Assembly (NCBI GenBank): GCA_903864555.1 | Contig: CAIPGJ010000476.1 | Coordinates: 1-17,177 of the forward strand | DNA from: an uncultured Pseudomonadota bacterium | GTDB lineage: Bacteria; Pseudomonadota; Gammaproteobacteria; Burkholderiales; SG8-39 | Reading direction: 5' to 3' | Length of the DNA stretch: 17,177 nucleotides | Shown: one piece after another, positions 7,808 to 16,129 of the stretch | Position numbering within the stretch: position 1 is the stretch's first letter | Layout: the number at the start of each line of letters is the position of its first letter | Translations under genes and position numbers: made by a program | The notes under the pieces: generated by a model | Seen by the model: the letters and a program-made list of their open reading frames with translations, nothing else | The model's database searches: none | Told to the model about the DNA's origin: nothing

Positions 7808-9940
7808 TCAGCCGATGATCAACAGGCCATCGACTGCGGCCACGCTGTCGACGCCCAGTTTGAGTGGATTGACTTCGAAGGTGAATTGCTCCCAGGGCGC
7901 GGTGGCAACCAACGCGGAAAAGCTGGCAATGAAATCAGCCGCCTGCCGTTGCTGCGATTCGGTGACAAGATGTGGAAGGCGCCGCAGAGTGCGCAGCCGG
8001 GAGAGCAGGTCAAACGCGCCTTGGGCTTCCAGTGGGGCACGGGCCAAAGCAACATCGTCGATCACCTCGGTCAAGCCACCGCCCATGCCGCAGCCCACCA
8101 TGACGCCGAATTCCCGGTCCCGAAAGGCGGTCACCAACAGTTCCTGGGCTCCAGCAAACATATGCTGCACCCAGGTGCCCTCCAGGGTGACGCCCAACTT
8201 TGCGGCGCGCTCGCGAAATAACGTGTCGGCGCGCATCACGGCCTCGGCTGAATCCAGGTTGAGGACCACCAGCCCGGCCGCGGCGCGATGGGTGATCGCT
8301 GGAGAGATGCCTTTAAGCACCACGGGAAACCCTATCTCGGTAGCGATGCGCACGGCATCGGCGGTGGTTGTGGCAAGCTGCCCGCGAGCGACCGGCAGCC
8401 GTGCAGCTTGGAGAATGCCGGCCACGGTGTGTTCGGAGATGACGCCTTCACCGGCGCTGACGAAGCGGTCCCAGTAAAACGGCTCCGGAACCTGTTCGCT
8501 GCGGTGAATCTGATGGCGCAAGTCCTCCGCGTGGCGCGTGATGTAGCCCAGCGTGCGCACAGCGCGCGCCTGCTCCGTGAAGGTGTAGATGCCGCGCCTT
8601 GCCAGGTTTTCCCGGGTGCCTTCGGGCATGGCCTGCCAGGTGAGACAGAGAGTTTTGGCGGTGTCCTGGCGCAGGTCGTCGAACATTTCCACCAGCTGGG
8701 GTGCGAGGCTGCCGAAGCCGGAGGAGAGAAATATCCAGCTGTCTATCCCGGGCGCCGCGGATAGCGTACGAAAGGCCTCGGGCATGTTGGCGCGGTACTT
8801 CGGCGTGGTCATGATGCCCGGAGTCATGTCCACCGGATTAAGTGCCGAACTGATGGGTGTCAGCAGTGGTGCCACAGCCTTCATTGTATGCTCGTCCAGT
8901 TGCGGGACCTGCAGGCCTTCACGGTCGCACTGGTCAGTGCAGATCACACCACTGCCCCCGCCGAACGTGGACACGAGCACTCGCCGGCCGGCGGGCAGTT
9001 GCCCGGGCTTCATGGACGAGAGCTGCAGGCATACATCCAGCAATTCCTCGGTGGAGTGAACGCGGATCACGCCAAATTCTCGAAACACAGCCTCGTAGGT
9101 GCGATCCATGCCGGCAAGGCGTCCGGTATGGGCAAGCGCGGCACGGCCGCTGGCCTCGGTCGCGCCGCCCTTGAGCATGACCACCGGTTTGCCGCTGCGC
9201 CTTGCCGCTGCCAGCGCCTCGACAAAGCGCGCCGCATCGGACAGTCCTTCGGTATAAACGGCGATGACGCGGGTACCCGTATCATGCGTCAGCGCATGCA
9301 TAAAATCCGGGATCCCGAGCGAAGCCTCGTTACCGCAACTGATGGTGAGGCGAAACCCCAACCCCAGTTCCTGCGCGCGCGCGTGCGCCATGACGCTCAG
9401 TCCCCCGCTCTGGCTCACCATGGAAACGGCACCCGGAGTGAGCCGGTCGTGTTCGTACATCATGGAGCTGAAGGAGGCGGTCAGCCCGATGGAGGTATTG
9501 ATGATTCCAATGCAGTTGGGCCCGCACAGCTTGATGCCGCTGTCACCGCATATCGCTTCCAGCTCACGCTGGCGGGCACGGCCTTCCTCGCCGGCTTCGG
9601 CAAATCCCCCGGCCCAGACAATGGCCGCGGGCACGCCGACTTCGGCGCATTCCCTCAGTACCGGGGCGACCGATTCGGAGGGAACCGAGAGGATTGCTAG
9701 GTCCGGTATCCCGGGCAACTCGCGCAGGCTTGCATAGCAAGGCAGCCCGGCAACATGGCTCCGGCCGCTATTCACCGGCCAGATCGGCCCATGGAACTTG
9801 AACTTGCTGAGAAAGCCGACGGCCACGCCGCCCAGGTTGCCTTCGCGGTCAGACGCACCGATGACGGCGACTGAGCGCGGGGCCAGCAGCGGCGTCAGCT
9901 CGCCAAACGGTGGCGTACTGACCAGGGAAGGGGCCTGCAT
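7808..9940 (-). CDS. ADP-forming acyl-CoA ligase (fused alpha-beta acetate-CoA ligase family)
   Basis: A 710-residue NDP-forming acyl-CoA synthetase with both subunits in one chain. It activates a carboxylic acid to its CoA thioester with ATP, giving ADP and Pi. Domain order: CoA-binding Rossmann domain (about 15-145; SVAVIGASDREGNLG, KLCGPNCIGIIN), succinyl-CoA-ligase-like domains (about 165-460; VSQSGGLSVM, SCGNEASLGIPDF), and a C-terminal ATP-grasp domain (about 495-705; GFPVVLKGISPAITHRAAAGLV, GTWVQHMFAGAQELLV, GMGGGLTEVIDD, FEVNPLKLG). The phosphorylated histidine is H271 in RAALAHTGRLAG, and the second relay histidine is H551 in SPAITH. All key elements are present. It lies 30 bp after the crotonase gene and 9 bp before the dehydrogenase gene. 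The acid substrate is unknown; context suggests the ligand of the nearby Bug proteins. Confidence 0.9.
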   Translation of the reverse strand: MQAPSLVSTPPFGELTPLLAPRSVAVIGASDREGNLGGVAVGFLSKFKFHGPIWPVNSGRSHVAGLPCYASLRELPGIPDLAILSVPSESVAPVLRECAEVGVPAAIVWAGGFAEAGEEGRARQRELEAICGDSGIKLCGPNCIGIINTSIGLTASFSSMMYEHDRLTPGAVSMVSQSGGLSVMAHARAQELGLGFRLTISCGNEASLGIPDFMHALTHDTGTRVIAVYTEGLSDAARFVEALAAARRSGKPVVMLKGGATEASGRAALAHTGRLAGMDRTYEAVFREFGVIRVHSTEELLDVCLQLSSMKPGQLPAGRRVLVSTFGGGSGVICTDQCDREGLQVPQLDEHTMKAVAPLLTPISSALNPVDMTPGIMTTPKYRANMPEAFRTLSAAPGIDSWIFLSSGFGSLAPQLVEMFDDLRQDTAKTLCLTWQAMPEGTRENLARRGIYTFTEQARAVRTLGYITRHAEDLRHQIHRSEQVPEPFYWDRFVSAGEGVISEHTVAGILQAARLPVARGQLATTTADAVRIATEIGFPVVLKGISPAITHRAAAGLVVLNLDSAEAVMRADTLFRERAAKLGVTLEGTWVQHMFAGAQELLVTAFRDREFGVMVGCGMGGGLTEVIDDVALARAPLEAQGAFDLLSRLRTLRRLPHLVTESQQRQAADFIASFSALVATAPWEQFTFEVNPLKLGVDSVAAVDGLLIIG

Positions 9941-9970
9941 GTCAGGATGACCTTCCGATCTTGGGCAAGA

Positions 9971-10807
9971 CTAGCGTCCCTTCCAGACCGGACGGCGCTT
10001 TTCCTTGAAGGCACGTGGTCCTTCGGCACCGTCTTCGTTCTCGGCGATTTCCTGGTCAAGATGGCGGGCGTAGGACACCAATGCCGGATCATAGGCTCCG
10101 GCCAGGCGGTACAGGCGCACGGCGGCCTGCACCGCAGTCGGCGAACTGAGGCTGATCATTTCCGCAAGCTCCTCGGCACTGGCCATAAGTTTCTCCTTCG
10201 GCACCACCCTGTTGACGATCGCAAACTGCAGGCATTCCTGTGCCGACAAGCGGCCGTTGCAAAGCGTCAGGTATGCAGCTACCGTGCGCGGCAGGTTGCA
10301 GTAAAGATTGTGTGCGGAGCCCAGGCGCCCCACTTTGGTATGGGTGTCTCCTATCCAGGTGTGATCAGCCATCACACGCAACTGGCATTGCAGCGCCAGA
10401 CTCAATCCAACCCCAACGGAAAAGCCGTTCATGGCCGCGATTAGCGGCTTTTCCAGGTTGGCGTCGCTTGGCTGGCCGCCACCTCCCCACCAGAACAGCG
10501 GATTGTTCGGATCCTCATGCGGCGTACGTATACCCTTGGCCTGGTACTCGGCGAGAAACTTCACGTCGCGACCGCCGCAAAAGGCCTCGTCGCCGGCCCC
10601 CGTCACTATGCCGCAGTAGATATTGGGATCCAGACCGATGTCACGCCAGCACGAGCGCATCTCGGCATAGGCATAGGAATGCAGGGAATTGCGCACATGG
10701 GGTCGATTGATCGTGACATAGGCCACATGCCCCTTCTTCTCATAGATGAGGTGCTCCAGGTTCTTGGGTGCGGAGTCAGGGTTATAGGGCGATTCGTACC
10801 TTGGCAT
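9971..10807 (-). CDS. Crotonase-superfamily enzyme lacking both hydratase glutamates
   Basis: A 278-residue enoyl-CoA hydratase/isomerase-fold protein. The fold and oxyanion hole are clear: VAYVTINRPHVRNSL (28-42), GAGDEAFCGGRDVKFL (70-85) and AAMNGFSVGVGLSLALQC (124-141). In rat mitochondrial hydratase the two catalytic glutamates sit in GGGCE and GQPE; here the aligned residues are S136 (GVGLS) and H156 (GDTHT), so ordinary hydratase chemistry is unlikely. An insert with a WWGGGG run (about 90-119) lies before the second oxyanion segment. The superfamily also contains hydrolases, decarboxylases and C-C bond lyases. The ATG at 10807 is chosen over a GTG six bases upstream because AAGGAG sits seven bases before it. 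It is the second gene of the aldolase-ligase operon. The superfamily is sure; the reaction is open. Confidence 0.88.
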   Translation of the reverse strand: MPRYESPYNPDSAPKNLEHLIYEKKGHVAYVTINRPHVRNSLHSYAYAEMRSCWRDIGLDPNIYCGIVTGAGDEAFCGGRDVKFLAEYQAKGIRTPHEDPNNPLFWWGGGGQPSDANLEKPLIAAMNGFSVGVGLSLALQCQLRVMADHTWIGDTHTKVGRLGSAHNLYCNLPRTVAAYLTLCNGRLSAQECLQFAIVNRVVPKEKLMASAEELAEMISLSSPTAVQAAVRLYRLAGAYDPALVSYARHLDQEIAENEDGAEGPRAFKEKRRPVWKGR

Positions 10808-13680: not shown

Positions 13681-13767
13681 AGTGTGGCCAGCAGTACATT
13701 TTCGGGTTGTGATGGCGTGGGGTCTGAAGCAGCCGCGGCATTATGGCGAATCACCGGGCAAAAAGAC

Positions 13768-13803
13768 AAAAAAAAGCCGGCCTCCGGGAGGGAGGCCGGC
13801 TTT
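13768..13803 (-). terminator. Strong intrinsic terminator of the cupin-rubredoxin gene
   Basis: A perfect 13-bp stem (13773-13785 with 13791-13803; core GCCGGCCTCC) has a 5-nt loop and is followed on the minus strand by a run of eight T (13775-13768). It lies 38 bp beyond the second, downstream TGA of the rubredoxin reading frame. On the plus strand it ends with only three T, so it acts mainly for the minus-strand gene. Confidence 0.9.
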
Positions 13804-13840
13804 CACCATGGCATTGGAAAGCGTTGAAAGCGGTTCTGGA

Positions 13841-13882
13841 TCAGAACTCGATGATTTCGAAGTCGGCCTTCTTGGCCTCTCA
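13841..13882 (-). other. In-frame continuation of the rubredoxin domain after an internal TGA
   Basis: After the TGA at 13882-13880 the same frame reads E-A-K-K-A-D-F-E-I-I-E-F and stops at TGA 13843-13841. Rubredoxins end C-P-x-C-G/E-x-x-K-x-D-F-E-x-x-E, so the TGA stands exactly where the fourth iron-binding cysteine belongs and the tail after it is intact. Possible causes are a recent TGC/TGT-to-TGA mutation, a sequence error, or recoding as selenocysteine. Downstream stems (GGCC-AAGAA-GGCC and UUCGA-AAUCA-UCGAG) do not look like a convincing bacterial SECIS. Confidence 0.7.
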
Positions 13883-14782
13883 ATCGGGGCACTCGAAGGA
13901 ATCCGGCACATCGGCCCAGCGCGTGCCGGGCGGGATGCCCGCATCGGCATGTCCGGTGGCTTCGTCATAGATGAAGGCACACAGGATGCACTGGTAGGTC
14001 TTGAAATCGCCCTTGCCATCGGCCGCAGGGGGCTTGTACTGGTCGGGCATGCCGCCGCCGGGAACCGGGAAGTTCAGGACCAGCGCGGTACAGCCTTCTT
14101 CACCGGCGACCAACTGGAACGGCCCTTCATTCTTGCCCACCCAGATGACGGTCAGGTCCTTCTTGATCTTGCCCTCGTGGACGATGCTGCCCTTGAGCAC
14201 GATGATGTACTGGCCATCACCCTTGGCCGGATCGGGCGCATAGCACTTGGCAGCCGCCTTCATCACCACGGAGAACCCGCCCAGGCCGCGGTCATCGCGC
14301 ATGTCTTCCATGGCCTTCATGGCCACGCCGCTCTCACCCGGGGTGAGATCGAGGTCGGGCATGGCGGTGATCTGCCAGGGCTTGCGGTTCTGCACCGCGT
14401 CGAGTTCGGCACGGGCGTCCGGCATGTACTGGGCGCCCGGGTCACGATGCGCGCGCAGCGTGATGAACCCCAGACCCTGGTCACCGTAGCTGATCGGGCC
14501 GTAGGGCGTGTAGGCGCGCGAGAAGTGCACGCCACCGAATCCCACCGGATGCTTGCCCATCTTGCCGTCGCCCTTGGCGATCACCTGGAACTGGTCAACG
14601 ATGTGGAAATGCGAGCGCAGCGTGCGGTTGGCCGAACCCTCGGCCAGGAAAGCCATCGGGGTATCGACGGTCTTGTCTTCGGGGCGCTTGATGAAATCGG
14701 TGCGCCAGGCAAAGTGGCCATTGGCCAGGTTGCGCTGAATGCGGGGATTGGGCACTTCCTCATAGGCAGTCACGAGTGGCAT
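13880..14782 (-). CDS. Cupin-like protein with C-terminal rubredoxin domain, interrupted by TGA at the last ligand cysteine
   Basis: Read to the first TGA this is 300 residues; with read-through it would be 313. Residues 1-240 look cupin-like (SHFHIVDQFQVIAKG at 57-71 with a possible metal pair H58/H60, then VHFSRAYTPYGPI, and VVMKAAAKCYAPDP and GQYIIVLKGSIVHEG in the second half). Residues 262-300 are a rubredoxin: YQCILCAFIYDEATGHADAGIPPGTRW...FECPD. The ligands C265, C268 and C298 are present; the fourth is the TGA codon (position 301), followed by a normal rubredoxin tail. The ATG at 14782 follows AAAGGAG by five bases. As truncated, the iron site would lack one thiolate. The fusion suggests electron delivery to a metal or flavin partner, but I do not recognise a named function. 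Single-gene unit with its own terminator; it is co-directional with aroC 243 bp upstream. Confidence 0.8.
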   Translation of the reverse strand: MPLVTAYEEVPNPRIQRNLANGHFAWRTDFIKRPEDKTVDTPMAFLAEGSANRTLRSHFHIVDQFQVIAKGDGKMGKHPVGFGGVHFSRAYTPYGPISYGDQGLGFITLRAHRDPGAQYMPDARAELDAVQNRKPWQITAMPDLDLTPGESGVAMKAMEDMRDDRGLGGFSVVMKAAAKCYAPDPAKGDGQYIIVLKGSIVHEGKIKKDLTVIWVGKNEGPFQLVAGEEGCTALVLNFPVPGGGMPDQYKPPAADGKGDFKTYQCILCAFIYDEATGHADAGIPPGTRWADVPDSFECPD

Positions 14783-15025: not shown

Positions 15026-16129
15026 TTAACCGGGACGCTGCGCGGCAATGCGTGGGGTCCCGGTCTCCACGTCGGCACACTGGGCCCGGTGGCGCAGCGC
15101 GTGGTCCATCAGGACGCAGGCCAGCATGGATTCGCAGATGGGCGCGGCGCGCAAACCAACGCAGGGATCGTGGCGCCCTTTGGTTTCCACGGTCACCGGC
15201 TCGCCCTGCTTGTTGACGGACCGACGCGGCAGGCGGATCGACGAAGTGGGCTTGAGCGCAATGCTGACCAGCACATCCTGGCCGGTCGAGATGCCGCCCA
15301 GCACGCCGCCCGAGTTGTTGGTGACGAAGCCTTCGGGCGTCATTTCATCGCCATGCTGGCTGCCGCGTTGTTCCACCGCGGCAAAACCAGCGCCGACCTC
15401 CACGCCCTTCACGGCGTTGATGCCCATCATGCCAAACGCGATATCGGCATCCAGCCGGCCATAGACAGGCTCACCCCAACCCACCGGCACGCCACTGGCC
15501 ACCACGTTGATGCGCGCGCCGACCGAGTCACCGTCACGGCGCAACTGGTCCATGAAGGCTTCCAGCGTGTCCACCGAGTCGGGATCAGGGCTGAAGAACA
15601 GGTTCTCGCGCACCGCATCCCAGGACTTGAAGGCCAGCTTGTGCGGGCCGATCTGGGCCACATAGCCACGGATGAGAATGCCGTAGCGCTCGGCCAGCCA
15701 TTTCTTCGCGACGGCACCGGCCACCCCCCGTATGGCCGTTTCGCGCGCCGAGGAACGCCCGCCGCCCTTGTAGTCGCGGATGCCGTACTTCTGCCAGTAG
15801 GTGTAATCGGCATGGCCGGGGCGGAAGGTTTCGGCGATGGCCGAGTAGTCCTTGCTGCGCGCATCCTCGTTGCGGATGACAAAGCCGATCGAGGTGCCGG
15901 TGGTGCGCCCATCAAAGACGCCGGACAGGATCTCGACGCGATCGGGCTCCTGGCGCTGCGTCACATGGCGGGACGTGCCGGGCTTGCGACGGTCCAGTTC
16001 CACCTGGATGTCAGCCTCGCTCAACGCGATGCCGGGCGGACAGCCGTCGATGACACCACCGATGGCCGGACCATGGGACTCACCAAAGGAAGTGACACAG
16101 TAAAGCGTGCCGAAACTGTTGCCTGACAT
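15026..16129 (-). CDS. aroC: Chorismate synthase
   Basis: A 367-residue chorismate synthase, the last step of the shikimate pathway: 5-enolpyruvylshikimate-3-phosphate to chorismate and phosphate, needing reduced FMN, in the cytoplasm. The sequence is typical throughout: [33 protein letters not shown] (1-33, including H19 of the GESHG signature), [28 protein letters not shown] (47-74), [29 protein letters not shown] (signature 2), SQHGDE and [14 protein letters not shown], and [19 protein letters not shown] near the C-terminus. The length is close to E. coli AroC (361). The ATG at 16129 follows AAGGGA. It has its own promoter-like element upstream and is unlinked to other shikimate genes here. 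All conserved elements are intact. Confidence 0.98.

Follow-up and report, generated by a model that had tools for sequence, protein, structure and literature searches.

An in-frame TGA at the fourth iron-ligand position of a predicted bicupin-rubredoxin gene

The gene, its encoded domains and its neighbours

The window analysed here, meaning the whole stretch of 17,177 nucleotides, carries on its minus strand a gene for a predicted bicupin with a C-terminal rubredoxin domain. The gene starts at position 14782 and, when read through an in-frame TGA, extends over 313 codons and a final stop (13841..14782, minus strand), an extent taken from the translation and matched over its full length by relatives of similar length. 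Translation of the minus strand over 13836-14782 ends in YQCILCAFIYDEATGHADAGIPPGTRWADVPDSFECPD, a stop, EAKKADFEIIEF and a second stop; the frame thus passes from FECPD through the first TGA into EAKKADFEIIEF and on to the second TGA. The first TGA is codon 301 (13880..13882, minus strand) and occupies the fourth iron-ligand position. Twelve codons in the same frame, identified by translation and alignment as the rubredoxin tail (residues 302-313; 13844..13879, minus strand), separate it from the second TGA (13841..13843, minus strand), which in the relatives' terms is the end of the gene. An earlier reading made from the letters of this DNA (the sequence-only reading) had placed the TGA on the fourth ligand cysteine and had the frame continuing to a second TGA; translation and the homologue column confirm the frame, the coordinates and the ligand position, and the continuation is borne out over its 12 codons.

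Downstream of the gene lies a hairpin resembling an intrinsic terminator, with 14 pairs and a run of T (13772..13804, minus strand). The terminator described earlier is thus present after the gene, although the loose scan behind it turns up an average of 1.1 such sites in shuffled sequence. TGA is a normal stop in the window, ending ten of the 16 other open reading frames taken as genes, and on this count altered decoding of TGA was discarded as an explanation. These 16 frames lack internal stops by the way they were defined, which is not evidence. A programmed frameshift was also set aside, as the conserved tail shares its frame with the upstream part.

Up to the stop, the rubredoxin domain comprises residues 261-300 (13883..14002, minus strand) with the ligands C265, C268 and C298. 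When read through, the C-terminus aligns with positions 2-47 of the 47 in the profile of the Pfam family Rubredoxin (PF00301), with 67.5 bits against a gathering score of 23 (E 1e-18). Among homologues having a residue at the respective position, the cysteines are conserved at C265 (118 of 118), C268 (118 of 118) and C298 (117 of 118). Of the two CxxC pairs that define a four-cysteine rubredoxin, the window encodes three cysteines, with the TGA at codon 301 standing where the last would be.

Residues 1-245 (14048..14782, minus strand) match no Pfam family. A predicted model of the protein has a mean pLDDT of 90.6. Its best Foldseek matches in the PDB include 3o14 (anti-sigma factor ChrR), oxalate decarboxylases, salicylate 1,2-dioxygenase and the putative dioxygenase 2qdr; sequence identity in the rows listed is 9-14%, and the TM-score to the query about 0.4-0.5. 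Several of these structures are bicupins, and on the predicted model this region looks like a bicupin, that is, two beta-barrel cupin domains. The label "cupin-like" given earlier to the protein was therefore apt, resting on the fold as seen in the model and the PDB matches.

The upstream neighbour is the chorismate synthase gene aroC (15026..16129, minus strand), which also adjoins the gene in one related locus (L002, in genome G002) and lies near it in another (L005, in genome G005). A CBS gene, aroC (86-87% identical) and the bicupin-rubredoxin gene follow in this order in the window, L005 and L002, and L005 further shares with the window a methyltransferase (71%) and a TctC-type receptor (74%). 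Elsewhere in the window there are four TctC-type receptor genes (PF03401; 1687-2826, 3814-5097, 5843-6835 and 11852-12826) in 17 kb. Among them stand a hydroxypyruvate or 2-oxo-tetronate isomerase-like gene, over its cut-off, and, below NCBIfam cut-offs, matches to a 2-hydroxyacid dehydrogenase, a CoA ligase, an enoyl-CoA hydratase and an HpcH/HpaI-type aldolase. The region of 605-931 and 981-1593 holds a HigA-family antitoxin (over cut-off) beside an HTH gene with sub-threshold matches only, and an overlapping 110-aa open reading frame in this region has no family match; the HTH gene and the overlapping frame are possibly a second toxin-antitoxin pair.

Codon 301 in homologues and related genomes

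A protein search returned 295 relatives, of which the best 120 were examined at the site. CPDC stands there in 117 of these 120, and in the other three (P0099, P0112 and P0114) the rubredoxin tail is missing, so that the alignment column of codon 301 is cysteine in every listed homologue having the tail (117 of 117). Aligning homologues at this codon had been proposed earlier as a check, and it returned cysteine in all listed homologues with the tail and TGA in none of those listed. The fusions of Burkholderiales and other Betaproteobacteria are alike with the window's gene in length, domain order and the invariant residues of both parts; they carry a PF00301 C-terminus and, where the sources name them, are termed "rubredoxin". 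Among the fusions listed, the window differs from all in having a stop where the fourth ligand is encoded, and isoleucine at codon 310 (13853..13855, minus strand), where 113 of 117 homologues have methionine and none has isoleucine.

The nearest relative among the matches listed, P0001, which represents seven member sequences, is full length, 96% identical over 313 residues and has cysteine at 301. In the tail, residue 310 is its sole difference from the window. Before the stop there are 11 differing residues, all within 145-251. These differences are spread unevenly, with none at residues 1-144 and none at 252-300.

Using the read-through protein, related genomes were also searched. In the family of G001, a relative's genome, all four genomes matched at E 0.001, some by the rubredoxin only; in the order of G001, with at most five candidates scored per genome, 12 of 399 genomes matched at E 1e-60 or better (20 rows); the family of G003 gave 51 of 74 genomes (80 rows) and that of G002 gave 4 of 98 (16 rows). 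Stop-bearing rows were few: one TAA and one TAG in G007 from the search of the family of G003, the TAA row coming up in the search of the order of G001 as well, and one TAG and one TGA in the search of the family of G001. The TAA match (G007:C41) has cysteine at the site and is stop-free through residue 309, while the other G007 match (G007:C82) has its TAG in frame. The match with the TGA (G008:C6, 29% identical) breaks off at residue 295 and the remaining TAG match (G009:C126, 33% identical) at residue 244, both short of the site. A Pfam rubredoxin search of 98 genomes gave no TGA among the matches listed and one stop-bearing row, a TAG (G532). No second TGA at codon 301 was thus seen among the 120 listed homologues or the genome match rows seen, some of which end before residue 301. 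A search for IMG/VR relatives with P0001 returned three stretches that fit a pattern, none of them a relative.

Cysteine at the site in all 117 listed homologues with the tail, the nearest of them full length at 96% identity, speaks for an ordinary nonsense codon, as do the lack of a TGA at this position in the genome match rows seen and the lack of a consensus bacterial SECIS described below. We give about an even chance to the TGA being an ordinary nonsense codon that arose by a real and recent point mutation. There is little decay, with one difference in the tail and none over residues 252-300 against P0001, which argues that the change is recent or absent from the organism altogether; the argument for "recent" is weak, since residues 1-144 are also identical to P0001.

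Absence from the organism would mean a base-calling or assembly error, with the TGA confined to this record and the organism having an ordinary full-length cysteine rubredoxin. We rate this a serious contender, at somewhat under an even chance. The gene is otherwise open and conserved, the window may be a metagenome record, and the odd Ile310 lies nine codons from the TGA, which puts two unusual calls within 30 bases. There is, however, no positive sign of an error, and Ile310 could equally have been allowed by a relaxation of constraint once a real stop was in place. A nonsense mutation and a sequence error give the same picture, and only the reads tell them apart. Mutation or error had been put forward as the leading plain explanation by the sequence-only reading, and both the homologue comparison and the SECIS tests described below support it.

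Selenocysteine machinery and the RNA after the TGA

Selenocysteine genes were searched for in seven relatives' genomes (G001-G007, the genomes of loci L001-L005, L007 and L008; L006 shares its assembly with L005, and L009 with L008). selB scored over its curated cut-off in all seven, selD likewise over its cut-off in all seven, and tRNA-Sec over its gathering score in all seven, with matches of 74-81 bits in six of them and, in G002, a match of 48.2 bits (gathering score 47) that is partial and adjoins selB at a contig end. In 14 well-known genomes used as controls selB passed in two, selD in two and tRNA-Sec in five, so that the tRNA-Sec search alone is unspecific. selA lies beside selB in G005 and G002, at 579 and 583 bits against a cut-off of 267.9; these were the two genomes checked for it, and both are syntenic with the window. 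In-frame TGA codons occur in selD of four of the seven genomes and in fdhN of G001. Taken together, selenoproteins are very probably made in this lineage, and probably, judging from the relatives, the window's organism can make them as well. As a separate observation, G002 and G005 have selA, selB, selD and a tRNA-Sec match, yet neither their selD nor their FdhN-like matches were reported to hold an in-frame TGA.

A lack of selenocysteine genes had been named at the outset as something that would speak against selenocysteine. In the relatives the outcome was otherwise: they carry selB, selD and tRNA-Sec, with selA in the two checked, so that the case against selenocysteine rests on other evidence. 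The reading itself holds that the UGA is recoded and that selenocysteine serves as the fourth iron ligand of the rubredoxin. It draws on the TGA lying exactly on a metal-ligand cysteine with a nearly intact tail behind it, on the machinery of the relatives, and on a 2026 review (PMC13188914) according to which some selenoproteins may use selenocysteine as a ligand to bind a metal. The evidence of the RNA and of recurrence points the other way.

The bacterial SECIS (bSECIS) consensus given in PMC13188914 has a loop of 3-9 nt with a G in its first two positions, an upper stem of 4-16 bp, an apical loop spaced 16-37 nt after the UGA and a minimum free energy of -7.5 kcal/mol or lower. We scanned for it with a custom script written from the published criteria, not with bSECISearch, under two stem rules. 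The lenient rule passes nearly anything, including 158 of 200 random window TGAs and 24 of 26 cysteine sites, and only a failure under it is informative; the window TGA fails, with a best hairpin of -5.5 kcal/mol against the -7.5 limit. The strict rule asks for a G followed by G or U and for four uninterrupted pairs. It gave no candidate at the window TGA; it passes all five of the relatives' in-frame TGAs (four in selD, one in fdhN), 64 of 200 random TGAs and 12 of 43 cysteine sites. Under either rule a pass says little, but the window's failure carries weight. The cysteine sites are those of cupin-fused and stand-alone rubredoxins, and they number 26 in the lenient and 43 in the strict scan since loci were added in between. 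The fdhN loci hold a second TGA context, in another frame, which passes leniently and was left out of the count. The earlier remark that no convincing SECIS is visible is thereby borne out.

A small GGCC-AAGAA-GGCC hairpin directly follows the TGA; it is present in identical letters in the cysteine homologues L002 and L004 and absent in L003, and because those cysteine homologues have it, no recoding is needed to explain it. The fold of the RNA over 13800-13882 is nothing special (z -0.64). Rfam gave no match for the whole window at the gathering threshold, and at a permissive threshold over 13741-13960 it gave 29 matches, all under the gathering score and most of them overlapping the terminator hairpin.

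The SelD and FdhN selenoproteins of the related genomes offer a close comparison, belonging to the same wider lineage and likewise having an in-frame TGA in a conserved protein. Their sites pass the strict bSECIS test, with loops starting GU or GGU and a spacing of 18-20, and the SelD TGA recurs in four of seven genomes, whereas the window's site has neither a strict candidate nor recurrence. Zhang and Gladyshev (2005) required for a new selenoprotein family a SECIS-like structure and at least two TGA sequences, and, on account of possible sequencing errors, treated single TGA sequences as candidates only (PMC1088965). Against this standard, among the homologues listed and the genome rows seen, there is one TGA sequence against 117 with cysteine, and it has no consensus bSECIS and less structure than most random TGAs. 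The word "rubredoxin" is absent from the main text of four selenoprotein papers (PMC13188914, PMC12013277, PMC1088965 and PMC9312934), and no title on a selenocysteine rubredoxin was found among the listed literature mentioning both "rubredoxin" and "selenocysteine". It also should be considered that a minority of true bSECIS elements deviate from the consensus model (PMC12013277; PMC13188914), and because some real elements misfit it, the scans lower the probability of selenocysteine and do no more than that. On balance we regard a selenocysteine ligand here as very unlikely. Its more specific form, a selenocysteine-ligand rubredoxin that uses a non-consensus SECIS and is newly evolved in a lineage keeping the whole machinery, we regard as extremely unlikely.

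The UGA might alternatively be leaky, or programmed to be read through, with a near-cognate tRNA decoding it part of the time so that short and full-length protein are made side by side. The frame does go on through a conserved tail to a second stop, as such a reading would have it. Near-cognate read-through of UGA usually inserts tryptophan or a similar residue, however, which would still leave the iron centre short of a cysteine, and a TGA stands at this place in no relative inspected. We hold read-through to be highly improbable, and the ordinary stop, whether by mutation or by error, to be the reading to carry forward.

Proposed role of the protein and predicted consequences of the stop

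Some insight into what the fused domains may do comes from organisms in which they are separate. Homologues lacking the rubredoxin exist at 28-33% identity, and of the 29 loci with such a cupin (L010-L038), 17 also encode a rubredoxin as a gene of its own, no more than about 1.5 kb away; the other 12, some on short contigs, show no nearby rubredoxin gene. In L014, from Rhizobium (8500-10687), the order is rubredoxin, an FAD/NAD reductase with a Reductase_C domain, and cupin; L014 is the one locus in which the gene in between was identified. The split arrangement, found mostly in Alphaproteobacteria, has the same two parts close together as separate genes, with a reductase gene between them in L014; in the window's relatives the two are fused. 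From gene order, a chain likely runs from NAD(P)H through the reductase and the rubredoxin to the metal centre of the cupin, which suggests an uncharacterised cupin enzyme fed by rubredoxin.

Were the TGA a true nonsense codon, a recent point mutation would have put a plain stop into what is normally a gene for a bicupin ending in a rubredoxin. Release at the UGA would then give a 300-residue product in which the bicupin remains along with three iron ligands. With the fourth ligand and the following 12 residues lost, the Fe(Cys)4 centre could not form normally, and electron delivery by the rubredoxin, presumably to the cupin centre, would be lost for this gene copy. The last two parts of the proposed chain are those that are fused in the window's relatives, and the stop would uncouple the chain for this copy.

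Such a loss may be tolerated, since rubredoxin-less homologues exist and each of the seven relatives' genomes holds more than one match to the gene. G001-G007 have between 2 and 16 matches each at E 1e-60 or better, for example four in G002, six in G005, five in G006 and 16 in G007, some of these being fragments. In G007 (the genome of L008) the 16 bicupin-rubredoxin matches lie in 5.7 Mb, some of them partial and two with a stop in the frame matched.

As it stands the finding matters little, being one nonsense codon in one gene of one record. It does carry a caution for selenoprotein searches: where a TGA coincides with a conserved redox cysteine and the lineage has selenocysteine genes, a filter by homology lets the site through, and only SECIS and recurrence tell against it. 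If selenocysteine were after all true here, the protein would be a natural case of iron held by a selenolate in a site of the rubredoxin type, and the effect of selenium on the redox potential of an Fe(Cys)4 centre could be tested directly.
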